A DNA stretch of 64,000 bases from positions 868,001 to 932,000 of the forward strand of contig NZ_AP019810.1 of NCBI RefSeq assembly GCF_013394305.1, given 5' to 3'. The translations under genes and the position numbers were made by a program. The stretch is from Enterococcus mundtii (lineage in GTDB: Bacteria > Bacillota > Bacilli > Lactobacillales > Enterococcaceae). The notes beneath the pieces were generated by a model. That model did no database searches, was not told where the DNA came from, and was given only the letters and a program-made list of their open reading frames with translations. The stretch's first letter is position 1; every line of letters starts with the position of its first letter. Below are positions 26,951 to 53,722 of this stretch, piece after piece.

Positions 26951-26967
26951 TTGAGTCAAATAAAAAT

Positions 26968-27003
26968 GCCATTGGAAGAGAGAACTCTTCCAATGGCATT
27001 TTT
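26968..27003. terminator. bidirectional terminator
   Basis: AATGCCATTGGAAGA pairs with TCTTCCAATGGCATT around GAGAAC, with A5 on the left and T6 on the right. Confidence 0.9.
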
Positions 27004-27016
27004 TCATTATCACTAA

Positions 27017-28489
27017 TTAAAACAAAACAGTTGCTGGATCAATCAATTGCGCTTGAGCTAAGCTGTTGTCACGACTGATCTCAAAATGCAGATGGCTGCC
27101 TGTACTATTACCAGTAGAACCGACAAACCCAATGATTTGTCCTTGTTCAACTTCATCATCAACTTTCACAACGTATTCTTGTTGATGAGCATAAAGCGCT
27201 GTTGTGCCATCTTCATGTTCAATGGCAACATAATTTCCCCATGAAGGATGGAATTCTGCTTTGATCACAGTACCCGCTTTACTAGCATAGATTGGCTCCC
27301 CTTGAGGTGCCGCAAAATCTAATCCACGGTGGAATTCACCACCACGAGGACCAAATGGGCTAGAAATCGTATAATTTCTTAATGGCACGATATATCCTTC
27401 TTTATTCACTTCAGGTCCGGCAACTTCTTTGTCATATTGTTCTAAATCATAAGTTTCGATCAGACCATTTAGTTTTTCGTTATATCTTGTATCTGTTGCG
27501 TAACGGCCTGTTAAAAATTCTGTTGCTTCTTTATAAGTTTCTGCATTGGATTTCCAAGCACCTGAATAGAACTCACTATTTCCAGTCAATCCTTCAGTCA
27601 TTAATTTAGCATAGTCTTCAAGACTTTCTTCATAGTTGGCATATTTTCTGAATGTTGCTTGGATCGTATACAATGTACCATCACCAGCATCTTCTTGTGT
27701 GGCAAAAGTCACACCATTGCCCTCATGTGTACCTTTGATCCCAAAAAGATTGTAGTTAGGGGCTTGCGCCAACTGGCTTTGTCCACTAGCTGATTCTAAA
27801 ATCGCTTGGGCGATCATCACTGATGCGTATAAATCATGTTCTTGCCCGATTTCTCGAGAAGATTCACCGATTTTGCGAATGAAGCTCTCAACTGATTCAT
27901 CTTTTTCAAAATGGATCGATCCTTCATCCGTTTCTTGACTTGATGGTACAAGATCTTGAATCGGTGTAGTTGCAGAAGGTTGACGTACCTCTTGAGCAAC
28001 TGGCGCTGCAGGAGCAGGCGTTGGTGCCACAGGTGCAGCTGGTTGTGTCGGCTGACTCGGCTGTGGTGTAGTTGGTTGTGTTTCTCCAGTAGAACCGCCA
28101 GTTGATGGTGGCGTTGGTTTTTGTGGCTGACTCGGCTGTGTTGGCTCTGTCGGCTTCGTCGGTTCTGTTGGTTTTGTCGGCTCCGTTGGTTTTGTTTCCT
28201 CCGGTGTGCTTGGCTCTGTCGGTTCTGAAGTATCAGGTGTGGTTGGTTCACTTGAATCACCAGTAGACGGTGGCGTTGATTCTTCTGTACCATCTGTTGT
28301 TGTATCTGTTGTGTTATCTTCACCTGTGATATCAGACGAATCCGTCGTTGTTTCTGTTTGGGCTTCCGCTGTTACTGGTTGGTCCGCAGAAAAAACTTGT
28401 TCATCTGCTAATACTTGTAAAGGCGTAGTTAGTAACATTTGTGAAAGAAATACAAATGAAACTAATTTATACGTAGACTTTTTTTTCAA
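27017..28489 (-). CDS. secreted peptidoglycan hydrolase, glucosaminidase plus M23
   Basis: A 490-aa exported enzyme. A signal peptide (to about residue 28, PLQVLADEQ) is followed by a long Thr/Glu/Pro-rich linker with PTEPTKPTEPTKPTEP repeats (about 45-185). A glucosaminidase domain (about 215-345; SVMIAQAILESASGQSQLA, NYNLFGIKG) cuts glycan strands. An M23 domain (about 375-490) has the zinc motifs HRGLDFA and HLHFE and should cut peptide stems. TTG start with AAGGATG upstream. Likely a cell-separation or remodelling enzyme. Confidence 0.88.
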   Translation of the reverse strand: MKKKSTYKLVSFVFLSQMLLTTPLQVLADEQVFSADQPVTAEAQTETTTDSSDITGEDNTTDTTTDGTEESTPPSTGDSSEPTTPDTSEPTEPSTPEETKPTEPTKPTEPTKPTEPTQPSQPQKPTPPSTGGSTGETQPTTPQPSQPTQPAAPVAPTPAPAAPVAQEVRQPSATTPIQDLVPSSQETDEGSIHFEKDESVESFIRKIGESSREIGQEHDLYASVMIAQAILESASGQSQLAQAPNYNLFGIKGTHEGNGVTFATQEDAGDGTLYTIQATFRKYANYEESLEDYAKLMTEGLTGNSEFYSGAWKSNAETYKEATEFLTGRYATDTRYNEKLNGLIETYDLEQYDKEVAGPEVNKEGYIVPLRNYTISSPFGPRGGEFHRGLDFAAPQGEPIYASKAGTVIKAEFHPSWGNYVAIEHEDGTTALYAHQQEYVVKVDDEVEQGQIIGFVGSTGNSTGSHLHFEISRDNSLAQAQLIDPATVLF

Positions 28490-28810
28490 TTTTCTTACAT
28501 CCTTTTCTTTAGTTATTTTTAAGATACATGTTAGTTATGAATTTTTTGTTAAAAAAATAATAATTTTTATAAAGTAATAACAATTATTTATCTCATATTA
28601 ATGCTTCGTTCCACTACTAATAACAAACGTTAAGTGAAAATATCTAGCGAACACTGAGATAATACGACAGACTTTTACTTTATTATAATTCATTTTAACA
28701 GGAATAAGAAGAGTTAAGCAGTCCATATTTTTTCATCATTAAGAGCAAAATTTGAACTTGACATTGATTTTTCCCCATTTTTTTTACCGAGTAATATCAA
28801 ATAATCTATA

Positions 28811-28852
28811 AAAAAAGCCCTCCAAATATTGCTATTCAACTATTTGGAGGAC
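28811..28852 (-). terminator. terminator after the LPXTG gene remnant
   Basis: CCTCCAAATA (28819-28828) pairs with TATTTGGAGG (28841-28850); the minus strand continues GCTTTTTTT. The rest of 28490-28958 is intergenic with no gene seen. Confidence 0.8.
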
Positions 28853-28958
28853 AGTCTCTGCTAAATTGATATCGAAAAAAAGATAGAATAACCAATCCTA
28901 TTAGTGAAGTTTACTACAAATTAAATACAGTTTGATTATTCAGTTTTTTTACGTCCAG

Positions 28959-29290
28959 TCAAATCATTGTTTCCTTTTTTACTGCAACGATTAGTACAAC
29001 TACTACTAAGACACCTCCTAGAGCGATTCGCATATAAAAAACAGATTTTCCCGTTTTAGGAAGAAATGATTCTCTTAAACCATTTTTCTTTGGAGCGGAT
29101 CTTCTTGGCTATGGTTGATTAGGAAACTCTTTTTCTGGTGTGGCTTCGTTATTCACTTTGACTTTAACGATGCTTAAACAAACTTTTATATCATTGATTT
29201 TTCCATATTCGGCGATGATCGTTCTATCTTTATAAATTTGACTTGGCAGCTGTGGGGCGTCGTTTTCACTTGTCAATCTATCTTCAATAA
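28959..29290 (-). pseudogene. 3' remnant of an LPXTG cell-wall-anchored protein
   Basis: Minus-strand translation gives an extracellular-type segment (SENDAPQLPSQIYKDRTIIA, EATPEKEF), an in-frame TAG (29109-29111), then ESFLPKTGKSVFYMRIALGG and a hydrophobic VLVVVVLIVAV with a basic tail. LPKTG is a sortase signal. A one-base slip near the end truncates the tail. The remnant starts within 10 bp of the ADP-ribosylglycohydrolase stop codon, so the upstream island probably replaced the rest of this gene. Confidence 0.75.
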
Positions 29291-29298
29291 TTCATCGT

Positions 29299-30870
29299 CT
29301 ATTCAAAATAATATCTGTAAACTTTTTCTACAAACAAACGTATCTCTTTTTTATATGAGCATTTTTTTCTAACTTCATTTTCTATTTGCTCTACATCTAA
29401 TTCTCCAAAAATATCTAAAGGTTTATTTCGAAGCATACGTATGGTTTCACTTAGTAAAGAGGTAAACTTTTCTAGAGTAATTCTTTGAGGTAAAGTATTT
29501 TGTAGTTCGATTATTTGTTCTGGTGAAAGTTCCAAATCAAAGAGTTCACTTCTCCTTAACTCAGTGTCCTCATTTTTAAAGACAGGTTTTTGTAACTTAC
29601 AGTAAAATGTTTGACTCTCTTCATTTTTTAATACAAAGACTTCTTTATTTTTCTGTGACCTTATAGGGTATTTATCTACAACTGTTAGATTGTCAAAAGG
29701 ACCTAGCTTTACAGACTTTTTCTTTCTATCATTTCCATGTAGTTCTTTTATCAAATTTTTTGATTCAGAAAAATTCCACATATCTCTTCTTTCGGGAATG
29801 GTTGCTTCCGGTATCGTTTTAGCCAACTGAGTGATATACTCAACATCTTGAACACCCAACCATTCTGATTTGATCCATCGTGTGCCATGGATTGCTCCTA
29901 ATAAACCACCTGTTGCTGCCGCATTTGTATCCGTGTCACTCCCTTCAAAAAAAGCGATCTCTAACAATCCATTCTGTGGATCTATAGAGAATTTAGATAC
30001 GATATAGATCGCTGTCAAACAAGTAACGACTCCTGAACCTTTCACTTTCGGATTATTGCAGTCTAATTTCGATAACGTCTCAGATGTTTGATCAAATAAT
30101 CCATTTGCTAACGTTTCTTTTATTAATGTTAATCCATCAAATAACTCTTCTCCCGTCTGTTCCCACAGTTTTTGATAATTTATACCTATAGAAAATGAAG
30201 CATTCAACCAATCATTGATATTATTAGGTACAGGAAACTTAGACCATTCTTCTTTTTTATTAATGAGATAGTCAACTAATTCCCCATATTTCATTTGTTT
30301 GTTGTTGGTAATCAGATACTCCGCAGCTTTTCCATAGACTAACGCACTCAAAATAGCTCTAGGATGTCCATGGGTAGATATTCCATTCAAAAATATTTTT
30401 TGATTCATTTCTTCACTACTTATATTTTTCTCATAAGCATGCGAAATGACCCTCATGACTACACCATTTCCACCCGCTTCAAAATAGGATTGGATGGCAC
30501 TCTTATTTTGCTTCCACGGTGGTTTGCCATTCGACCATGAACGAGCAGCGCGCTTCGTAGCTCCTCCTCCTCCACGTTCATAAAGCAACCACGAAGGTAA
30601 TTCGCTTCTTCCAAAATAAGATAGAAAATTACGATAGTTTAACGCCCTCGCAGTCGCTAGCGTCAGTTGGGTATCATCACTGTAACTTCCTTTTTGTATG
30701 ATTTCTTCTGTATAGGTGTGACCATAACCCGAACGTCTTACCCATTTTTGAAAATCTGTACTCCTAGCAGATTTATTTTTTGTTTGACTTCTTTCTTGTG
30801 GCCATCCCATGGCATCACCGATTGCAACCCCTAATAAAGATCCCAGATATTTATCTTCTATTGAGTTCAT
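29299..30870 (-). CDS. ADP-ribosylglycohydrolase with C-terminal extension
   Basis: A 523-aa protein. Residues 1-380 are an ADP-ribosyl-glycohydrolase (ARH/DraG) domain that removes ADP-ribose from modified targets; Mg-site motifs are GDAMGWPQE (18-26), SDDTQL (64-69), GNGVVMR (134-140), THGHP (166-170) and EGSDTDTNAA (309-318). About 140 further residues (Lys/Glu-rich, ELFDLELSPEQIIELQNTLP) are not part of the usual fold and could bind the neighbouring transferase. ATG at 30870 follows AGGAG. It is 10 nt after the DarT-like gene, suggesting the antitoxin or reversal partner. Confidence 0.8.
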   Translation of the reverse strand: MNSIEDKYLGSLLGVAIGDAMGWPQERSQTKNKSARSTDFQKWVRRSGYGHTYTEEIIQKGSYSDDTQLTLATARALNYRNFLSYFGRSELPSWLLYERGGGGATKRAARSWSNGKPPWKQNKSAIQSYFEAGGNGVVMRVISHAYEKNISSEEMNQKIFLNGISTHGHPRAILSALVYGKAAEYLITNNKQMKYGELVDYLINKKEEWSKFPVPNNINDWLNASFSIGINYQKLWEQTGEELFDGLTLIKETLANGLFDQTSETLSKLDCNNPKVKGSGVVTCLTAIYIVSKFSIDPQNGLLEIAFFEGSDTDTNAAATGGLLGAIHGTRWIKSEWLGVQDVEYITQLAKTIPEATIPERRDMWNFSESKNLIKELHGNDRKKKSVKLGPFDNLTVVDKYPIRSQKNKEVFVLKNEESQTFYCKLQKPVFKNEDTELRRSELFDLELSPEQIIELQNTLPQRITLEKFTSLLSETIRMLRNKPLDIFGELDVEQIENEVRKKCSYKKEIRLFVEKVYRYYFE

Positions 30871-30880
30871 CCTCTCACTC

Positions 30881-31555
30881 CTATTCCATATAAAGACTTT
30901 CTTCAGGGATATCACCGGCTCTTAATTTATTCGCCAAATTTTTGTCATACATATCTGCACAAGTAAAAATTTTAATTGTGGATAGATCACATTGAGCAAT
31001 TTCAAGACGATTCAATTCTTTCTTCGCTTGTGCTTGGTCTCTAAATACAATTCCTTTAATATTTGTCTTTGAGATCGAATGTCTTATTAGCACCTCCGCT
31101 TGATTATCAGTAGGTGAGCAGATCAACATATTCTTTGTTCTGTTCAATTCCATCTTCCCTACTGATCTAGACTTATACAGACTCTTGAAACTCGATAGAC
31201 CACTCCTTATGAGTTTCCCACTTTCTGTAGCAGCATTACATGGACAAAAAAGAGTTTGATCATTAATGACACTAGGAGAAATCAACAAAATAGAGAATTC
31301 TTTAAATAAATCAAGCCTATTCCTCTTCTCTAACTCATATAAATAATAGACATTAGGGTATTCGATTGAACAACAAATATAATCTTCTTTACCATCAATT
31401 CTATTTAGATCATTTTTTTCCAGATCTTCTTTGATAAAATTGTTCGCAAGGATCTTACCATCTCTATCCAATATCTTGGGCAAATTTTTGGACTTAGTAA
31501 AATGGCACAAACGAGTAATTTTTCTCTCACTAATATATGATTCATACTCATTCAT
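30881..31555 (-). CDS. DarT-like ADP-ribosyltransferase
   Basis: A 224-aa protein of the DarT/DUF4433 type, whose best-known members ADP-ribosylate thymidine in single-stranded DNA. The N-terminal NAD-site motif RLCHFTKSKNLPKIL (15-29), the CCSIEYPN strand (61-68) and the candidate catalytic Glu154 in NQAEVLIRHSI are visible. The ATG overlaps the helicase stop by 8 nt (ATGAATGA). Sequence is diverged from classic DarT, which is paired with the macrodomain antitoxin DarG; here the partner is an ARH-type enzyme. Confidence 0.7.
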   Translation of the reverse strand: MNEYESYISERKITRLCHFTKSKNLPKILDRDGKILANNFIKEDLEKNDLNRIDGKEDYICCSIEYPNVYYLYELEKRNRLDLFKEFSILLISPSVINDQTLFCPCNAATESGKLIRSGLSSFKSLYKSRSVGKMELNRTKNMLICSPTDNQAEVLIRHSISKTNIKGIVFRDQAQAKKELNRLEIAQCDLSTIKIFTCADMYDKNLANKLRAGDIPEESLYME

Positions 31556-32951
31556 AACCGTTCCTCAAATCATATAAACTTGTATCCTCTGGCAATAGTT
31601 CAGTTAATTTGTCCACATACGTAATTATTACTCCAGATTTTGCCCGCGTCACACTTACATAGATCAATTTGACAAATTTTACTAGCGCGTCTTGTTTGCT
31701 ACCATATTTAGCTATTTCCTCTTCTGTAGGCATATATCGATCACTCATAAATGGTAAGAAAACTAAATCAAATTCTAATCCTTTAGCAGAATGATAAGTT
31801 CCGATGTGCAAGTTGTCAGTATTCTTCCATTTACCCATGTCTTTTTTTAATATTGTATGCTCAATTCCTTTTTCAGCAAAAATAGACGCTATTAAATTGA
31901 CATCTTCTCTCGTTTTGACTAGCACTGCTTTGGTTCTTGATACATCCGAGTTGTCTACTAAACCCATCAAAGATTCTATTTCCTCTTTTTTGTCTCTACA
32001 TTTTATTACAAGAGGATTTGGACCAACCACATCTGGAACAATGGAGTCGATTTTATCATTCTCATCAATTTCAAAAAAGGGTAATTCCGAAATTGCTTTC
32101 GCTAACTTTCCGACTCCTGATTTGTTTCGATAGTTTTTTTCCAATTTCCAAATCTTGACATTATTTAGTCCCGCAGAACGCCATGAAATCCTACTTCCAT
32201 AAATTTGTTGATTCTCATCACCAAAGAAATTGATACTACCATCTTTCGATACTAGCATACTCAAAGACTTCAACATCATTGGCGAAAAGTCTTGACCTTC
32301 GTCAACAAGTATATATTTATATCGCTTTTCCGTATCATCTCTTTGCGCTTCTTCAAACACCGCTGTAGCTATACTATCCCAATCATATAAATAGCCTCTT
32401 TTATTCCTTAGATCTACATATTGTTGGTAGACTTCGTAAAAATAGATTCTGTTTTTCCTTAAAATCCGAGCATCCCGTCTTCCAGTTCGTTCAATTTTAA
32501 TATACGTCTCTTGATCCATTATTCCCATTTTTTGTATCCATTCAATTTCATCGATAAAAATATCCATATGTCGTTCTAACGTATTCTCATCAGGATATTT
32601 ATTTTTCACTTTATCTAGCGCCTCTGCAATAAGTTTATTTTTTGATTGTAAGATGGCGTTTGTCTCCATTTTACCTCTTGAATTCAGATACCCTCGTGCC
32701 AACTTATGATAGTTTTGAATCAATAAATTTTTGGGAGAATCTTCTAATATAAACTCCATATATTTAATAAGTGTCCTATTATATGTAAGTATAAGGACTA
32801 TATCATCAGGGTAATTTTTTGCCATATTTATCGCCCTAACTAAAGCAATAGTTGTCTTTCCGCTTCCTGCCGTACCTAAAACAACAATATTATCTTCATC
32901 AGAAAGATATAGTACATCCACTTGTTTTCCTTCAGGTTTTGGTAATCCCAT
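31548..32951 (-). CDS. UvrD/Rep-like SF1 helicase
   Basis: A short superfamily 1 helicase (467 aa). Motif I GTAGSGKTTIAL (about 32-43), Walker B ILVDEGQDFSP, motif III FGDENQQIYGSRI, motif IV-type NYRNKSG, motif V TYHSAKGLEFDLVFLP and motif VI YVSVTRAKSGVIITY are complete. The 1B/2B insertions of UvrD are much reduced, as in defence-associated helicases. Start ATG at 32951 with GGAGG seven bases upstream. First gene of a tightly overlapping operon with a DarT-like transferase and an ADP-ribosylglycohydrolase. Confidence 0.85.
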   Translation of the reverse strand: MGLPKPEGKQVDVLYLSDEDNIVVLGTAGSGKTTIALVRAINMAKNYPDDIVLILTYNRTLIKYMEFILEDSPKNLLIQNYHKLARGYLNSRGKMETNAILQSKNKLIAEALDKVKNKYPDENTLERHMDIFIDEIEWIQKMGIMDQETYIKIERTGRRDARILRKNRIYFYEVYQQYVDLRNKRGYLYDWDSIATAVFEEAQRDDTEKRYKYILVDEGQDFSPMMLKSLSMLVSKDGSINFFGDENQQIYGSRISWRSAGLNNVKIWKLEKNYRNKSGVGKLAKAISELPFFEIDENDKIDSIVPDVVGPNPLVIKCRDKKEEIESLMGLVDNSDVSRTKAVLVKTREDVNLIASIFAEKGIEHTILKKDMGKWKNTDNLHIGTYHSAKGLEFDLVFLPFMSDRYMPTEEEIAKYGSKQDALVKFVKLIYVSVTRAKSGVIITYVDKLTELLPEDTSLYDLRNGYE

Positions 32952-33063
32952 AAAATAACCTCCACTATTTTATTTATCCAGATATCTCCCCCACGAAGAA
33001 AAGCGCTTACGAAAATTTATTGATTTGTCCCGGAACCTCCTTTATCAATTATTTTATATTATC

Positions 33064-33093
33064 ATTATATACACTGAATTGTTAAACCGTAAA
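33064..33093 (-). promoter_or_regulatory. promoter of the helicase-DarT-ARH operon
   Basis: Minus strand: TTTACG (33088-33093), 18-base spacer, perfect TATAAT (33064-33069). The leader to the ATG is about 100 nt and holds an AAGCGCTT palindrome (33000-33007) resembling the core of a CcpA site, and an AGGAGG (about 33034) not followed by a start codon. Confidence 0.6.
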
Positions 33094-33200
33094 GTTATAA
33101 TCTGTATTTAAAATAACTTTTATTTTTTAATAAGAAGAGAGGTTATGAAAAAATTATTCCGCGACTTCTCTTAAGCAACATTATTTGATCAAAAATAAAA

Positions 33201-33239
33201 GAATCGATTTAAGCATATTTCATGCTTAAATCGATTCTC
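33201..33239 (-). terminator. terminator
   Basis: GAATCGATTTAAGCAT pairs with ATGCTTAAATCGATTC; the minus strand continues TTTTATTTTTTG. It follows the RhuM-like pseudogene and shields the helicase promoter region. Confidence 0.75.
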
Positions 33240-33251
33240 GATGAAATTATT

Positions 33252-33585
33252 TCAATTAAAACTAACCAAACGTACTGTGTCCGGAAATATAACAAACTGA
33301 AGAATTGTTAAATCACATAACTGTTTATCTTTTTGAGGATGTTTATATAAGGTGGTCGCCTTTTTTACTAACCTTCCACCCTCTTTTTGAACTGTTTCCA
33401 TTTTGGAAATAGTTCGATCTTCTATCAATTCACTAGAATTAAATATATTTTTCAGATGTTTACTAATTGCCGGAATGCCAACATCAAAAGCTTCGAAATC
33501 GTCTTTTGTGTTGCCCAAATGGTCTCAGCTTGACCATTTCTTCACTGTATTCATACATCAAAAAATTGGATTTCATCCAACTTGA
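33252..33585 (-). pseudogene. frameshifted RhuM-family gene
   Basis: Three frames together read like the N-terminal part of a RhuM (virulence/DNA-binding) protein: MKSNFLMYEYSEEMVKL, then WATQKTISKL, then FDVGIPAISKHLKNIFNSSE and TISKMETVQKEGGRLVKKA. RhuM proteins normally continue for about 200 more residues, so the gene is both frameshifted and truncated. Such genes are common in restriction and defence loci. Confidence 0.65.
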
Positions 33586-33815
33586 TTTATTCTCCCTTCT
33601 TGATTCCATCTGTATTTTATTAAGATAGTTGCTAAAATTGTCACGATACTTGATTCATATCATATGTAACTCGAATGAACATTGTTCTTATTTGGCAACT
33701 CCCCAAAAATATTGTGTTCAACTGATTTATTTGTGTTATAGCAAAAAATCGTGTTACTAATATATACGCCAAATATTGCCATGAAATTATAGTAGGTATT
33801 ATTATTTACAGAAAA

Positions 33816-33849
33816 AACTAAGACTTTGTTCAAAGTCTTAGTTTTTTAG
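33816..33849. terminator. bidirectional terminator
   Basis: AAAACTAAGACTTTG pairs with CAAAGTCTTAGTTTT with a two-base loop, T6 on the right. It follows the GIY-YIG/helicase gene on the minus strand. The remaining 33586-33908 is AT-rich without a gene. Confidence 0.8.
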
Positions 33850-33908
33850 ATTTCAAGAGTATTTATTTATATAATAAAATGACTGGGTGTATACAACACA
33901 CGATATAA

Positions 33909-35573
33909 TTATAATCCAATACGTTGTTTAAATATTTTTTCTACATCTTTATCTTCAAAATATACTCGACATCCATCAATTCCTCTTGTAAGAAGTACGT
34001 AATATATATTCAAAATATATTCAGTTAATTCAGATAAAGAAAATTCTTTTTTTAGAGGTGTCCCACCACTATCCTTATAATTACTAGGTACTGCCATTAT
34101 TTGATTATCTATTACCGTGATATCATTTCCTATAATTACTCCAGAATAATTCAGATCATATCCTTGAATTGAATGTATAGATCCAATTTCTTTTTGTGAA
34201 TTAGGTTTTTTTATCCAATCTTCATAAGTGGAGTTCCATCTTCTATTAATACCGTCTATTTCCCAATCATAAGGTAACTCATATAATTTTTTTCCTTTGT
34301 TAGACTTTTTATTTATATTAGATTTCCATTCTCTACAGTATCCAGCTATTACTCTATTAGTTGTTTCAGGATAGGCATGAGAGTGAAGCTCTACATACTC
34401 GATAACTTCATTAAAATTATCCGCGATGCCAAAGTAGTCATTTTTGAATACATCTAAATTAAAATTTTTATCTTCACTTAATTGTAGAGCATACAAAATC
34501 CCTTTTAAATAGTCTTCTCCTGAAAAATTACCATCACCACTAATTCTAAATTGTTGTGATAAAGTTAATTTTTTATAATTAATAGTTAATTTTCGAATTT
34601 CAGAAGGAGTAATATTTTGCGGTTTAATTCCTTGATAGGAATCGTATAACAAAACCAACCCCTCAGTTATTTCTTCTAAGAGTGTAATTTCATCATCATC
34701 TTTATTAAGGTGCCTTCTTGAATTAGGATGACCCTTTGTATAGTATTTTTTTAACTTGTGTGCTTCATCAACAATTATGATATCAAATTTTTCTTTGTTT
34801 TTCTTAGCATCTGTTATCAACTGTGAACTAGTCTTAACAAATAATCTATTATTCAAGTTTATAGATTTAAAAATTAAATTAAACTGTTTTCTTAAATTCC
34901 CAGTTGTAACAACACCAATCTTTAAATTAGGGTTATTTATTGCTAGGGAAAAAGCTAAATTTGTAAATAATACAGACTTACCTGAACCCGCGGGTGCTTC
35001 GACTATAAATTTTCCTGAAGGATCAGTTTCAATTTCATCAATAATTTCTTTTTGCTTTACGGATAGTTGTTTAAATGGAGAATATTTAAATAACAAACTT
35101 TCTCTCAATTTATTTATATTTTTATTTTTGGATAAACCTAGCTCAAATAATTCATTTTTCCATAATCTATAAAATACACTAGAACGAATTTCCTCTTTAT
35201 TTTTATAAACTAATTTTGTTTGTCCATTATTGCCATTTGCCAAAACAAAATTAGTTTCATCAGATTCAGCGACCATATAATTAAGTAGTAAGGATTCCAA
35301 ATCTAATACAGCCGATTTATGAAATAGGTTAGAATAGATAACTAGACATTCAGTATACTCACGATAATCAGTTTTAGGTTCTTTTTCAGCTAAATGCTCT
35401 CTATGTCTATTATTAAAGCAACTAGTTTCACCAACATAAATTATTTTTCTTTCTAGATTATAATATATATACGTAACTGGATTATTATTTAATATATCAT
35501 TTTCTATTTTTGATAGATTATTCGATATCCATCCATTGTTTAACTGTAGTTTTAAAACTCGATAATACGACAT
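33909..35573 (-). CDS. GIY-YIG nuclease fused to DUF2075-type helicase
   Basis: A 554-aa two-domain protein. Residues 30-100 form a GIY-YIG nuclease (TYIYYNLERKIIYVGETS, then NRHREHL; candidate metal Glu in LDLESLLLNY). Residues 170-554 are a P-loop helicase of the DUF2075/SF1 type: Walker A VEAPAGSGKS (191-200), Walker B IIIVDEAHKL, and the late motifs IGSIHSIQGYD and YVLLTRGIDG. The ATG at 35573 follows GGGGAG. The gene is clearly more AT-rich than its core neighbours. Likely a single-gene nucleic-acid defence factor; that role is inferred. Confidence 0.78.
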   Translation of the reverse strand: MSYYRVLKLQLNNGWISNNLSKIENDILNNNPVTYIYYNLERKIIYVGETSCFNNRHREHLAEKEPKTDYREYTECLVIYSNLFHKSAVLDLESLLLNYMVAESDETNFVLANGNNGQTKLVYKNKEEIRSSVFYRLWKNELFELGLSKNKNINKLRESLLFKYSPFKQLSVKQKEIIDEIETDPSGKFIVEAPAGSGKSVLFTNLAFSLAINNPNLKIGVVTTGNLRKQFNLIFKSINLNNRLFVKTSSQLITDAKKNKEKFDIIIVDEAHKLKKYYTKGHPNSRRHLNKDDDEITLLEEITEGLVLLYDSYQGIKPQNITPSEIRKLTINYKKLTLSQQFRISGDGNFSGEDYLKGILYALQLSEDKNFNLDVFKNDYFGIADNFNEVIEYVELHSHAYPETTNRVIAGYCREWKSNINKKSNKGKKLYELPYDWEIDGINRRWNSTYEDWIKKPNSQKEIGSIHSIQGYDLNYSGVIIGNDITVIDNQIMAVPSNYKDSGGTPLKKEFSLSELTEYILNIYYVLLTRGIDGCRVYFEDKDVEKIFKQRIGL

Positions 35574-35879
35574 ATTTCTCCCCATAAATTTTTACTTATT
35601 TCTTGTATTTATTATAACATAAAACAATTTATTGTTTTTCATGTTATTGTCGTAATTATCTGTCTATAACTATCACTTATTTCGTTATTAATAGTGTTTT
35701 TTATTTAAATATAAGCTACTATTATTATTTAGAATATATGATTTAATGTAATAATTTGTATTTTTTTAATTATAGCCATTAAGATATCAAAATAAAGTAT
35801 CTATCTTTTTTTGTTGAACAAATATTTCTCTTTATTCTTTGTGTTAGTTAAATTCAAAATCGCTTTATCTTAGTCGACA

Positions 35880-35915
35880 AAAAACTCCGAAACCTCAAAT
35901 AAGTCTCAGAGTTAA
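35880..35915 (-). terminator. terminator of the corrinoid/iron transport operon
   Basis: Minus strand AACTCTGAGAC pairs imperfectly with GTTTCGGAGTT, followed by TTTTTTG. The upstream stretch 35574-35880 is very AT-rich and holds no gene. Confidence 0.65.
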
Positions 35916-35918
35916 TTA

Positions 35919-36713
35919 CTATTTCTCTATTTGCGATGCTCCTTCCCCCAACTTCTCCCATATCTCACTCTGCTCCTGAAAATGCTTCACTAGATCCACC
36001 TCAAAGATATCTTTGAGCAATTTTCTCGAAACTGTTTCCAGAAATGGACCTTGCTTGATGACTTGGCCTGTTTTCATGAACAAGACTTGGTCGCTTAAAG
36101 AGAGGGCTAAACGGATGTCGTGGAAGACTCCGATGATTGTTTTGTCTTGGTTTTTGCCCCAGTCTTTTAAATAGCCGATGAGTTCGAGCTGGTGCTTGAT
36201 ATCGAGATGATTATTGGGTTCGTCTAGTAATAAGATATCTGGGTCTTGGGCTAATACTTTGGCTAAGAAGACACGTTGCTTTTGACCTCCGGAAAGTTGG
36301 TTGACGGGGTGGTCTTTCAGCTCTAATAAATTAGTCAGTGCTAGGCACTCCATGACTTTTTCGCGGTCTTCTGCTGTGGTGACTGACCATAGTCCTTGTT
36401 TGATGTGCGTATAGCGGCCCATCATGACAGTTTCATAGACGGTGTAGTCAAAGGCAATGGTTGAAAACTGGCTGAGTAAGGCGACTTTGCGTGCGGCTTC
36501 CTTGCGTTTCATCGTGCGGACTTCTTTTCCATCGATCGTGATCGATCCTTCGTAGGAAAGGATGCCCGCAATTGATTTTAATACGGTCGTCTTGCCACAG
36601 CCGTTAGGTCCTAGGATACATAGGTTCTCACCTTTGTTCAGCTCGAAGGAAACTTCTTTGATGATTTTTACTGAGCCATAGCCAGCTGTGACTTGCGATA
36701 GCTTCAAGGTCAT
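35919..36713 (-). CDS. btuD: cobalamin/iron-siderophore ABC transporter ATPase
   Basis: ABC ATPase of the FecE/BtuD type (264 aa). Walker A LGPNGCGKTT, Q-loop ALLSQFS, signature NQLSGGQKQRVFLAK, Walker B ILLLDEPNNHLD (Asn where Thr is usual) and switch GVFHDIRLAL. ATG at 36713 chosen, seven bases after GGAGG. Last gene of the riboswitch-controlled operon, so cobalamin is the likely substrate. Confidence 0.85.
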   Translation of the reverse strand: MTLKLSQVTAGYGSVKIIKEVSFELNKGENLCILGPNGCGKTTVLKSIAGILSYEGSITIDGKEVRTMKRKEAARKVALLSQFSTIAFDYTVYETVMMGRYTHIKQGLWSVTTAEDREKVMECLALTNLLELKDHPVNQLSGGQKQRVFLAKVLAQDPDILLLDEPNNHLDIKHQLELIGYLKDWGKNQDKTIIGVFHDIRLALSLSDQVLFMKTGQVIKQGPFLETVSRKLLKDIFEVDLVKHFQEQSEIWEKLGEGASQIEK

Positions 36714-36726
36714 CACTTTTCCTCCT

Positions 36727-37251
36727 TTAGCGGTAATTTCTGCTGACAAAAGGAATTTCCGTTACGTCGTCTTCTTGGTTGAATTTCATCGCGATCATGA
36801 AGAAGTAACCCGACAATAAATTGAAAAAGTCTAGCAAGCCTGAATCGACTTTTTTACCTTGATAAAGATGGCGATACAGCAAACGAACGATTACTTTACA
36901 ATCGACACGTAAAATATGAGCTAATGCACCTCGTTCACTTCCTTGAGGTAAGAAGAATGGTCCACTTTGGTTTGTTCTTTCTGCATTCAATTCATCGACA
37001 CGACTCTTTAACCAGTCGACTTCTTCTTGCGTGATCGTCATTTTTGTACGCACGCACGCATTTGCATGGTAAACCAATTCACCGATTTTTTCTAACTCCT
37101 TGTAAAAAGGAGAATCTTCACACTTTGCGCGTAGTAACCCGATTTCTGAAGATAAGCGATCGGTGTGTAATTCATAATCGCAACGTAAATCATCTGCATC
37201 GTCTGCTAAAAATGGATAAGCCTCATAAGGACTTCGATAAATATCTTTCAT
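36727..37251 (-). CDS. divergent PduO-like protein in the transport operon
   Basis: A 174-aa four-helix-type protein. The C-terminal half retains the outline of PduO adenosyltransferases (DELNAERTNQSGPFFLPQGS, RGALAHILRVDCKVIVRLL), but the N-terminal KTGD ATP loop is absent and the catalytic RRxER is replaced by VIVRLLYR. It may bind corrinoid without being an active adenosyltransferase. Start ATG at 37251 uses AAAGTGAG overlapping the permease stop. A classic PduO-type enzyme is encoded in the eut operon. Confidence 0.6.
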   Translation of the reverse strand: MKDIYRSPYEAYPFLADDADDLRCDYELHTDRLSSEIGLLRAKCEDSPFYKELEKIGELVYHANACVRTKMTITQEEVDWLKSRVDELNAERTNQSGPFFLPQGSERGALAHILRVDCKVIVRLLYRHLYQGKKVDSGLLDFFNLLSGYFFMIAMKFNQEDDVTEIPFVSRNYR

Positions 37252-43251: not shown

Positions 43252-44661
43252 TTATGGTTGTTTCGTGCCATCTGGAAAAATGGTTCCAATATTCCCATCA
43301 GTTTTTATTACACCCACTCGTACACCATTATAATCCCCAAAAATAACATCCCCATTTTGAGCACCTACAAAATTTGATTGGTTAGCAATATGCTGTGCTG
43401 CACGTTTTATCTCTTTATTTGTCCAATTTTCAGGAAACCAAGATTGACCTGTGCCTATACGTTTCGACGGTGTCTTGTGGTGTGGTACATTTCCAGCTCT
43501 GACACCATTAGAGTAAGTTTTTTCAATGTTTACTTCAAACCCATTTTCCTTTAGAAAGTCAATGTTAGCTTGGCCATGTCCCCCACCCTTCATTTTGGAA
43601 ACTTTTCCTGTGGAAGGATTAACAGTAAAATCTCCGACATCAGCATGTTTCAAACTTTGTTCCGGAATTTCAAGTTTAAAGACTGTAGCTCCTCCCTCTT
43701 TCTCACTAAACGACTTTTTATTGACACTCCCAACATCATCGATGCCATCTAATCTCGAAGCACCTTTATTTCCATAATACGCCCCCATCACTGTGTCGCC
43801 AATATTCGTAAATGTTCCTGACCATGCAGCGTACTTGAATTTATTCGCTTCTTCTTGGCTGATTTTCTTTCCTGTGTAGGGATTGATTCTTATATTCGCA
43901 CAACCAAGTGTTTTGCGATTGATTTCTTCTAGACTATCTGTTTCTTTGATTAACTCAATCTCTTGATCGCCTGATTCAATAACCAAAGATACGTCTTTTT
44001 TTATTTTCTCAAAATAACTTTTATTTGTACCTTTTGGTAATGAGTATGAGCCATCACTTTTGATTGTCGTATTATTTAATATCAATACACCTTGCATCGC
44101 TATCTTCAACTCATTTAGACTATTAGCAAATAAACCACTTGTTTGTGTATTGAAATCCTGTAGTTTTCTTAGTTGATTTTGTAAATGATCGATAGCTTGT
44201 TGAAAGCTATCAGTCATTCGCTGCAAATCTCTTTCAACATTCAACAAGGTATCTAGTACACTTGCGATTGGGTTCAGTGTCGTTTGTAATCGGACGAAAA
44301 ATAAGGTCTTGTCTACTGAGTTTTTCATTGTACGTGTGACTTGTATCTGTTGATTTAACTTATCTTCATTCAATTCGCCTTCACTTGCCACTATTTTATC
44401 GGCATTTTGGTATTTTTTCAATTCTTGTTCAATCTGTTCAATGGCATTTGTTGTGCGGGTGATCGTTGGAATGATCAAATCCGCAAACAAGCCTTTGCCT
44501 GCTGTATACGCCGCACCAGATAATTGCTTGCCATCTACTGCTGAGACAACTTTTTGACTACCCGATTTCAATTGACTTACAGTTTCTTTACCACTTTCTA
44601 AATTACTTTTAAGCGCAGACATAAAGTCTGAAGATTCACTACTGACATAAATCAATCCCAT
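43252..44661 (-). CDS. LXG-domain polymorphic toxin with EndoU nuclease
   Basis: A 469-aa effector expected to leave by the type VIIb secretion system. Residues 1-200 form the helical LXG domain (SSDFMSALKSNLESGKETVS, RMTDSFQQAIDHLQNQLRKL). A middle region has NPYTGKKISQEEANKFKYAA and GTFTNIGDTVMGAYYG. The last 110 residues are an EndoU RNase (GGGHGQANIDFLKENG, RAGNVPHHKTPSKR, GQSWFPENWTNKEIKRAA, TIFPDG). Its ATG overlaps the upstream partner gene by 10 nt. No T7SS machinery is in the window. Confidence 0.85.
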   Translation of the reverse strand: MGLIYVSSESSDFMSALKSNLESGKETVSQLKSGSQKVVSAVDGKQLSGAAYTAGKGLFADLIIPTITRTTNAIEQIEQELKKYQNADKIVASEGELNEDKLNQQIQVTRTMKNSVDKTLFFVRLQTTLNPIASVLDTLLNVERDLQRMTDSFQQAIDHLQNQLRKLQDFNTQTSGLFANSLNELKIAMQGVLILNNTTIKSDGSYSLPKGTNKSYFEKIKKDVSLVIESGDQEIELIKETDSLEEINRKTLGCANIRINPYTGKKISQEEANKFKYAAWSGTFTNIGDTVMGAYYGNKGASRLDGIDDVGSVNKKSFSEKEGGATVFKLEIPEQSLKHADVGDFTVNPSTGKVSKMKGGGHGQANIDFLKENGFEVNIEKTYSNGVRAGNVPHHKTPSKRIGTGQSWFPENWTNKEIKRAAQHIANQSNFVGAQNGDVIFGDYNGVRVGVIKTDGNIGTIFPDGTKQP

Positions 44662-52775: not shown

Positions 52776-52879
52776 ATTCTTTACAAATCGATACAGTTAT
52801 TTGTAAGTATTAGAGAAATTTTGTTTTTTTCTGATACAACAATTTATAGACATGATTAAAATGATTGAGAGGTATCCAA

Positions 52880-53722
52880 ATGTCAGTAAATACTTATCAG
52901 CAAAAAGAAAAATCTCTCTTAAACGACATAGCTCGTTTGGAAAGAAATTTGGCAAACGAGCAAAAAAATATTACTACTTGCGAAAAAAAGATTGTTTCAA
53001 ACCAATCAATTATTGCTCGTTCTAAAAATGCTTCAACCATTCGAACTAAGCAACGTACAATTGAAATAGAGACTAGAAAGCTTGTTCAAATTAAAAAGAA
53101 AATTGCAGACCTCTCTTCAAAGTTAGCAAGAAAGAGAAAAGAATTAGGTGATAATCAAATTAAACTTACCAAAGCAACACAGACAGAAAATGGTAAATTG
53201 CAAAAAAAATTACAAAACTCTTACGGAGAACAACTCAAAACAATGCGGCAATTACAGCAAGAAGAGATTAAAGTCATTCATTCGGATGTCTTAAATGACC
53301 CTTCTCTTTCTGATAAAGAGTATGATGTTTTTATCTCTTATGCTTCCGAAGATTCAAATTATGTTGATAAATTGGAATCAGCCTTTAATGATGCTGGATT
53401 TTCAATATGGCAAGATAGAAGAAGTATTGGCTGGGGAAACTCAATAAGACAATCGATTGATAATGGATTAATTAAATCAAAATTTGGCCTAGTTGTCATT
53501 TCTTCAGACTACATCCAAAAATATTGGACTAACTACGAATTAGATGGAATCTTAAGCAAAGAAAGTTCTACGGGTCGTCAAATGATTTTACCGCTTTGGC
53601 ATAACGTTACTAAAGATGAGGTTGATTCAAAAAGCCCTTCCCTTTCTAATAGATTAGCTTTAGATACCAGACTTAACACTATAAGCGATATTATTGAATC
53701 ATTTAAAAATTTAATCGAATAA
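52880..53722 (+). CDS. coiled-coil TIR-domain protein
   Basis: A 280-aa protein. Residues 5-130 are a long coiled coil (NDIARLERNLANEQKNITTC, IETRKLVQIKKKIADLSSKL). Residues 148-280 are a TIR domain: YDVFISYASEDSNYVDKL, GFSIWQDRRSIGWGNSI, VVISSDYIQKYWTNYELDGI with the candidate NADase Glu at about 220. ATG at 52880 follows GAGAGG. Opposite strand to the prophage genes and next to the lysis end, the usual place of an accessory (moron) gene. An anti-phage NAD+-depleting role is plausible but not shown. Confidence 0.82.
   Translation: MSVNTYQQKEKSLLNDIARLERNLANEQKNITTCEKKIVSNQSIIARSKNASTIRTKQRTIEIETRKLVQIKKKIADLSSKLARKRKELGDNQIKLTKATQTENGKLQKKLQNSYGEQLKTMRQLQQEEIKVIHSDVLNDPSLSDKEYDVFISYASEDSNYVDKLESAFNDAGFSIWQDRRSIGWGNSIRQSIDNGLIKSKFGLVVISSDYIQKYWTNYELDGILSKESSTGRQMILPLWHNVTKDEVDSKSPSLSNRLALDTRLNTISDIIESFKNLIE

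Follow-up and report, generated by a model that had tools for sequence, protein, structure and literature searches.

A conserved operon of a superfamily 1 helicase, a DarT1-like ADP-ribosyltransferase and an ADP-ribosylhydrolase in Enterococcus mundtii: a candidate anti-phage system of toxin-antitoxin type

The operon and its three proteins

The window analysed here is a stretch of 64,000 nucleotides, positions 868,001–932,000 of the 3.30 Mb genome of Enterococcus mundtii. On its minus strand, at 32951–29299, lie three closely packed genes encoding a superfamily 1 (SF1) helicase, a DarT1-like ADP-ribosyltransferase and an ADP-ribosylhydrolase (ARH), in that order (Table 1). We interpret the trio as a three-gene anti-phage system of toxin-antitoxin type, in which the transferase would be the toxin, the ARH the eraser and antitoxin and the helicase their partner, and give this reading a probability of about 0.65.

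The helicase and DarT genes share 8 bases, and the DarT and ARH genes either overlap by 35 bases, if the ARH starts with the GTG at 30915 (538 aa; gene 29299–30915), or lie 10 bases apart with the likelier ATG at 30870. The gene coordinates of the initial annotation were exact on re-check, and its three overlapping or nearly touching genes stand. The single promoter that it gave them is plausible, since a candidate -35/-10 pair follows a terminator-like stem and the scan found no terminator-like site inside the operon on the same strand, but promoter-like matches in the region are not above chance (30 versus 39.3 in shuffles). The upstream stem-loop would insulate the operon from upstream transcription. 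The AT-rich island in which the operon had been placed is visible as a GC content of 27–35% over 28–37 kb against 39–45% over 10–28 kb, but is not singular, 39–53 kb being AT-rich as well. The stretch 26962–33851 is 97.9% identical to E. mundtii Pe161.

Table 1. Features of the operon in the window.
Feature	Position	Strand	Remarks
UvrD/Rep-like superfamily 1 helicase, gene 1	31548–32951	minus	467 aa; Pfam, PADLOC resemblance and motifs in the translation
DarT1-like ADP-ribosyltransferase, gene 2, predicted toxin	30881–31555	minus	224 aa; Pfam, 8baq by sequence and fold
ADP-ribosylhydrolase (ARH/DraG fold), gene 3, predicted eraser and antitoxin	29299–30870	minus	523 aa from ATG
ARH C-terminal extension, residues 378–523	29299–29739	minus	small beta module with 'GQT'-type motif (SQT here), then helices
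Candidate operon promoter TTTACG-18-TATAAT	33064–33093	minus	pattern match only, 10 of 12
Terminator-like stem-loop upstream of the operon	33199–33239	minus	19 pairs and T-rich tail; terminator scan

The transferase matches the Pfam family DarT (PF14487) at 5.1e-17 with 62.7 bits (gathering cut-off 22.5), NCBIfam NF048013 (toxin_DarT) with 16.8 bits, below the 150-bit equivalog cut-off, and the PADLOC model for DarT with 24.2 bits. Its closest solved relative by sequence is DarT1 of E. coli C7 (8baq, 5.8e-13), and a profile of 59 relatives gives 194.6 bits to 8baq, 28.2 bits to the Thermosipho DarT-DarG fusion (7omu) and 21.6 bits each to the DarT proteins of Thermus and M. tuberculosis. With an AlphaFold model of the protein (pLDDT 95.2), Foldseek ranks 8baq first (E 8.5e-13, TM 0.75/0.80) and places seven DarT2-type chains next. 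The DarT-like fold with Glu154 that had been read from the sequence, and for which structure prediction of the 30881–31555 product had been proposed as a check, is thereby borne out; Glu154 is the glutamate of the ADP-ribosyltransferases (ARTs) and aligns with E152 of C7 DarT1, a position replaced by Ala in the mutant that was crystallised. Kept in the window are also H18 (C7 H17), F19 (F18), T20 (T19), R52, D54, S63, N107 (N104) and Q152 (Q150), so that the DarT1 catalytic residues R52, D54, N104 and E152 all have their equivalents and a serine at 63 replaces the tyrosine of DarT2. Over 59 DarT rows N107 is found in 59/59 and R52 and D54 in 58/59 each; the constancy of E154 and Q152 is no independent evidence, because both belong to the search pattern. 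Judged by the profile scores the window transferase is DarT1-like.

DarT1 modifies guanine, not thymidine (PMC11543638), and guanine is therefore the base to be expected first for the DarT of the trio. N107 alone is not decisive for the base, as the Thermosipho fusion also has Asn at that column. Thymidine, the target named in the initial annotation, was rejected as the first expectation: the profile matches the guanine-modifying DarT1 far better than the DarT2-type chains (at most 28.2 bits), and S63 stands where DarT2 has the [H-Y-E] tyrosine.

The ARH matches Pfam ADP_ribosyl_GH (PF03747) at 2.1e-37 and no PADLOC model. It has the ARH/DraG fold, and its model matches DraG, ARH1, ARH3, Tri1 (6drh) and Lmo0067 (8za7). 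The active site is intact as first described, with the di-metal residues S64, D65, D66, D312 and D314 all present, and these residues occur in 53/53 aligned rows. The C-terminal extension described earlier also exists, but about 165 residues (358–523 of the ATG form) rather than 140 follow the ARH domain; in the model, strands (387–427) precede helices (450–522). Q420 is found in 49/53 aligned ARHs, and the extension has no Pfam family at E ≤5 and no credible sequence match in the PDB. The trio ARHs of loci L005, L007, L021 and L081 end in a glyoxalase/VOC domain.

The helicase matches Pfam UvrD-helicase (1.2e-20) and UvrD_C (6e-17), and its best resemblance in PADLOC is GajB (3.9e-24), with other helicase models also matched; a match to the RNA polymerase motor HelD is weak and well below the cut-off. 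The translation contains GTAGSGKTT, DEGQD and YVSVTRAKSG, which we take to be its SF1 motifs. Like GajB it would be a UvrD-like helicase of a defence system; unlike in Gabija no OLD-family nuclease GajA was found by Pfam among the three proteins of the operon or in the neighbouring product of 33909–35585. The trio helicase of E. coli (L109:14001–15398) is labelled '3'-5' exonuclease' in RefSeq, probably wrongly, because the Salmonella-plasmid copy (L010), with DNA at least 99% identical to the E. coli trio, has a helicase with UvrD-type Pfam matches. A Nostoc trio has a different SF1-type helicase (AAA_11/AAA_12) in the same place, which suggests that helicase action, not one protein family, is what matters.

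Conservation of the gene order, the eraser slot and genomic settings

The trio turned up first among plasmid records, in Shinella (where the record so labelled has 4.6 Mb), Streptomyces and Rhodococcus, and later in a Salmonella plasmid record and in Nostoc. An alignment of six such DarTs was used in a scan of genome contigs (70 loci) and of viral contigs (10 loci), and 87 loci (L004–L090) were classified with local profiles. The trio is present in the same order and on the same strand in 54/87 loci, a share inflated by drawing the sample with a motif from DarT-ARH operons, and one that includes near-copies (L011 of the window, L014 of L012, several Streptomyces). The other loci comprise 5 with DarT-ARH that lack this helicase, 5 with helicase-DarT-NADAR, 19 with DarT-NADAR, 1 with helicase-DarT at a contig end and 3 with none of these partners. 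By record title the 54 trios fall into ten phyla: Bacillota, Pseudomonadota, Cyanobacteriota, Actinomycetota, Chloroflexota, Myxococcota, Bacteroidota, Thermodesulfobacteriota, Latescibacterota and Zixiibacteriota, several of them as metagenome bins. The neighbourhood search for the gene triplet in unrelated genomes, suggested when the operon was first noted, thus finds its order conserved.

The gap between helicase and DarT is at most 20 nt in 53/54 trios and that between DarT and ARH at most 20 nt in 52/54, so that the latter pair has the adjacent, closely packed genes of a toxin-antitoxin module; the median is -4 for both, with starts set at the first possible codon, which may exaggerate the larger overlaps. 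One gene is broken in four of the 54: L068 and L075 have a split helicase, L051 a split DarT, and in L090 the ARH is broken beyond its catalytic part. None of these few broken copies combines an intact DarT with an ARH broken in its catalytic domain. Three of the five DarT-ARH loci (L009, L047, L053) are of a cyanobacterial BREX type, L074 is without such a helicase, and the fifth, L019, looks like a further trio cut by the contig start, with the tail of the helicase visible.

E. coli carries the trio in 21/5,426 complete genomes, always on the chromosome and with at least 99% identity over the whole query, and these near-identical copies may represent one recent spread; one copy has its DarT gene at L109:15399–16064. 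With the whole trio available in this species, common laboratory strains and their phages would suffice for experiments on it. In the genus of the window 2 of the 15 genomes listed carry this DarT and in its phylum 11/398 have DarT-like matches, the window's genome included in both counts, so that the trio is widespread but rare. Among 50,697 phage records there was no match (E 1e-5) for the window DarT, the window ARH or the Salmonella-plasmid DarT.

Exactly one eraser stands beside DarT in 83/87 loci, 59 times an ARH, 24 times a NADAR protein and never both. The five helicase-DarT-NADAR loci are L012, its near-copy L014 (outside the Pfam scan), L013, L017 and L055. In L012, L013 and L017, from Staphylococcus and Jeotgalicoccus, a NADAR-DarT1 gene follows the helicase and DarT (Pfam E 1.4e-73 to 1.2e-44); in L055 the NADAR gene (1e-86) is on the opposite strand. 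A tree of 85 DarT rows (L011, L014 and L051 left out, L009 and L047 trimmed) needs five eraser changes, its deep branches mostly not starred, and has the window in a 36-row fork (support 90) that also holds most trios and the NADAR rows of Staphylococcaceae; the nearest rows by path are L013, L018, L017 and L012. In the helicase tree (58 rows, with a long-branch warning) the Staphylococcaceae helicases lie in a clade of 35 rows with trio helicases (support 100), and L055 (NADAR) and L058 (ARH) are neighbours in both the DarT and the helicase tree (support 92 and 99). ARH and NADAR appear to fill one slot, because related helicase-DarT pairs carry either the one or the other, never both. The earlier proposal that the ARH takes the place of the usual antitoxin is therefore upheld as to the slot, but the partner replaced is NADAR, not the macrodomain DarG. 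One frame behind a DarT, L004:2–1342 (minus strand), combines NADAR-DarT1 and type I restriction specificity domains and is a possible NADAR-HsdS fusion.

The genome of the window, estimated to be 100% complete, has no match to NADAR-DarT1, NADAR or a macrodomain, either among the operon proteins or elsewhere, and this ARH is its sole one. An ordinary pair of the DarTG1 type with unrelated neighbours, in which the trio is a coincidence, would agree with the place of the window DarT in the DarT1 branch; it is already contradicted by the lack of NADAR in operon and genome and by an order and packing kept in ten phyla, and we regard it as extremely improbable.

Several copies lie among defence genes. 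On a plasmid of Nostoc sp. C052 (L091:9302–16050) helicase, DarT and ARH stand between pglX and pglZ of a BREX operon, and in L047 and L053 a PglZ-like gene follows DarT-ARH, in L053 by likeness to L009 only. The DarT of L009 and L047 carries a long N-terminal extension. In a P2-like prophage (L090) the trio separates replication gene A from the portal gene, E. coli JNU has it beside integrases at ychF, 13 kb from the RADAR gene rdrB, and the Rhodococcus copy adjoins a HigA-type antitoxin with a RelE/ParE toxin, a multiubiquitin/ThiF set and an Abi gene.

The flanks of 46 DarT-ARH loci, each 8 kb or longer and with the near-copies L011, L060, L061, L064 and L072 omitted, gave 263 open reading frames (ORFs) of 130 aa or more, which were scanned against PADLOC and Pfam. 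Among the PADLOC matches listed are BREX proteins, which may all stem from the three cyanobacterial BREX loci, and, with one ORF each, type I restriction-modification, DrmD, HmaC, Tmn, PD-T4-6, LmuB and Argonaute. The trio might instead be an addiction module of plasmids and islands, or a module for DNA repair, without a role against phages. Some copies are indeed on records labelled plasmid or on mobile islands, and many of the flanking Pfam families, among the matches listed, are metabolic, which tells against a defence function in a scan that is in any case descriptive and without a matched control. Insertion inside BREX, at a P2 cargo site and at a junction where the trio alternates with Wadjet genes or a DNA methyltransferase (see below) argues the other way, and we consider such a module improbable.

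Proposed mechanism and relation to known systems

For the trio we infer toxicity, a DNA target and its base, erasure by the ARH, protection against phages and the part played by the helicase, as follows. The DarT1-like enzyme would use NAD+ to attach ADP-ribose to bases of single-stranded DNA, guanine being expected first, and the ARH would use its di-metal site to clear this mark from host DNA, thereby serving as antitoxin in the place of NADAR or macrodomain DarG. The SF1 helicase would deliver the transferase, or restrict it, to single-stranded DNA, most simply to intermediates of phage replication or recombination. The strongest argument that the ARH acts on the product of DarT is the exchange of ARH and NADAR in the eraser slot, and the tight packing of the genes would favour balanced expression of toxin and eraser. 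Possibly the guanine N2 amino group, which resembles the arginine guanidinium served by ARH1 and DraG, offers a chemical reason why such an enzyme could clear the base. The fuller version, a third DarT class in which an ARH antitoxin clears ADP-ribose from DNA bases and an SF1 helicase controls the transferase, so that unwound phage DNA either sets the system off or is the only place where it acts, has in our estimate an even chance.

Further observations weigh against this interpretation, and the residues of the transferase are among them. M71, essential in C7 DarT1, is Y71 in the window (27 Y, 9 M, 6 F and 2 L in 44 helicase-ARH rows) and C7 F72 is L72. The C7 guanine readers K74 and Y75 are E74 and L75; K74 is kept in 14/44 helicase-ARH rows and in 5/8 DarT-NADAR rows, and Y75 in 0/44, yet in only 4/8 DarT-NADAR rows too, and the three Staphylococcaceae rows, whose partner is NADAR, lack both. 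Because M71, K74 and Y75 are changed, the base may differ from guanine. The changes at K74 and Y75 could point to RNA instead of DNA as the target, as could the modification of RNA by some other ARTs, e.g. CmdT (PMC11618068), and the weak likeness of the helicase to HelD; the closest solved relatives are DNA-modifying DarTs, and an RNA target is in our view rather improbable.

Other objections concern the ARH. SCO5809 and human ARH-like enzymes left guanosine-ADP-ribosylated RNA uncleared (PMC11833690), and human ARH3 failed to clear DarT-modified DNA (PMC9967889). ARH3 and SCO5809 are reported to be active on phosphate-end marks of DNA or RNA (PMC8385414, PMC11833690), and in the literature searched, seen in part, there is no report of base-linked ADP-ribose being removed by ARH enzymes. 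Since the ARH-type enzymes tested did not clear this linkage, the trio ARHs, with their special C-terminal part, have either gained the activity on bases or act on another linkage or by binding. In an explanation that takes the latter course, the ARH would be an antitoxin mainly by binding DarT, or the mark would sit on a protein, e.g. the helicase, with the ARH clearing arginine or serine. The ARHs that match the model (DraG, ARH1, ARH3, Tri1 and Lmo0067) serve protein-linked ADP-ribose or immunity to other ARTs, and the C-terminal module could be a binding surface. DarT relatives of solved chemistry act on DNA bases (PMC11543638), and NADAR, a guanine-ADP-ribose hydrolase, fills the ARH slot behind related helicase-DarT pairs; this explanation is thus unlikely, if the least unlikely of those set against DNA marking by DarT and its erasure by the ARH.

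To be counted with these objections are the loci in which no eraser was detected beside DarT, L046, inside a contig, and L048 and L059, with DarT near the contig start, and the composition of the other ten phylum matches, namely 1 DarT-ARH (genome G647), 2 DarT-NADAR and 7 with neither within the short locus. In G647 (L107:3941–8371, minus strand) the DarT (333 aa) is divergent; it and the ARH follow genes for a DNA methyltransferase and for a 316-aa protein without a Pfam match, an arrangement that may be a restriction system carrying its own DarT-ARH pair.

The trio is best read as a DarT-type toxin system with a third class of antitoxin and a helicase partner. It shares with DarTG1 of E. 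coli C7 a DarT1-type transferase with the equivalents of R52, D54, S63, N104 and E152, an eraser gene directly downstream and a defence setting, and differs in an eraser that is ARH and not NADAR, in the added upstream helicase and in the changed M71, K74 and Y75. DarTG2, in which DarT2 is paired with a macrodomain DarG, has the DarT fold and likewise, behind the toxin, a hydrolase of ADP-ribose that is extended at its C terminus, but its kinship is weak (≤28.2 bits by profile), the trio has no macrodomain and a different base is expected. Tri1 and Lmo0067 are, by their PDB titles, also ARH folds paired with an ADP-ribosyltransferase toxin, without a helicase, and the transferases paired with them are effectors, not DarT. 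In DraT/DraG a transferase is again paired with an ARH, but the pair regulates nitrogenase through arginine (PMC9967889) and is not a defence locus. CmdTAC is, like the trio, a three-gene anti-phage system built on an ADP-ribosyltransferase; unlike it, it has an mRNA target and a chaperone as the third gene, and the words hydrolase and helicase are absent from the main text of the CmdTAC paper (PMC11618068).

PADLOC-DB 2.0.0 (2023) and NCBIfam hold no model naming the trio as one system. In the literature searched, in the parts seen and with preprints outside its scope, the DarT antitoxins described are macrodomain or NADAR proteins (PMC11833690, PMC9503650, PMC11543638), and there is no description of a UvrD-DarT-ARH trio. 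DarT genes are stated to be linked with different hydrolases, citing de Souza and Aravind (PMC11543638), who may have noted the link of ARH to DarT earlier. Few enzymes besides the DarT toxins are known to place ADP-ribose on DNA bases. A third antitoxin family without kinship to the other two, together with a constant helicase partner, would, if confirmed, show the eraser to be an exchangeable module and extend the reported substrates of the ARH family from phosphate-end marks to a DNA base, and would raise the question of what a helicase does for a DNA-marking toxin.

The variable junction and other features of the window

The trio lies in a variable junction (26962–36749) between a cell-wall hydrolase gene (26962–28489) and an ABC-transporter gene (35941–36749). 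The cargo at this junction differs among four related genomes, with 7.5 kb in the window, 5.4 kb in G058, 22 kb in G145 and 30 kb in G292. A Wadjet set (JetA, JetB, JetC and, in two frames, JetD) stands in G292 together with a PDC-S05 gene, and G145 has a type II methyltransferase with a neighbour showing a weak DpdB-like match; both also carry sugar-metabolism and surface-protein-like genes, and neither has a DarT match.

Next to the trio, at 33909–35585 (minus strand), a GIY-YIG nuclease domain is fused to a helicase of the Schlafen-group-3 type (Pfam). The gene looks like a separate insertion, because the stretch 33851–35941 is missing at the same junction in E. mundtii Pe161 (L011). Between it and the trio, 33252–33518 (minus strand) is by eye a short remnant resembling part of a PDC-S05-type gene at the same junction of a related genome (L106:14302–15294). 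Elsewhere in the window the product of 43252–44661 (minus strand), whose gene is preceded by a small one, resembles by eye a polymorphic toxin of the LXG type, and that of 52865–53722 (plus strand) has a C-terminal half that appears TIR-like by eye.

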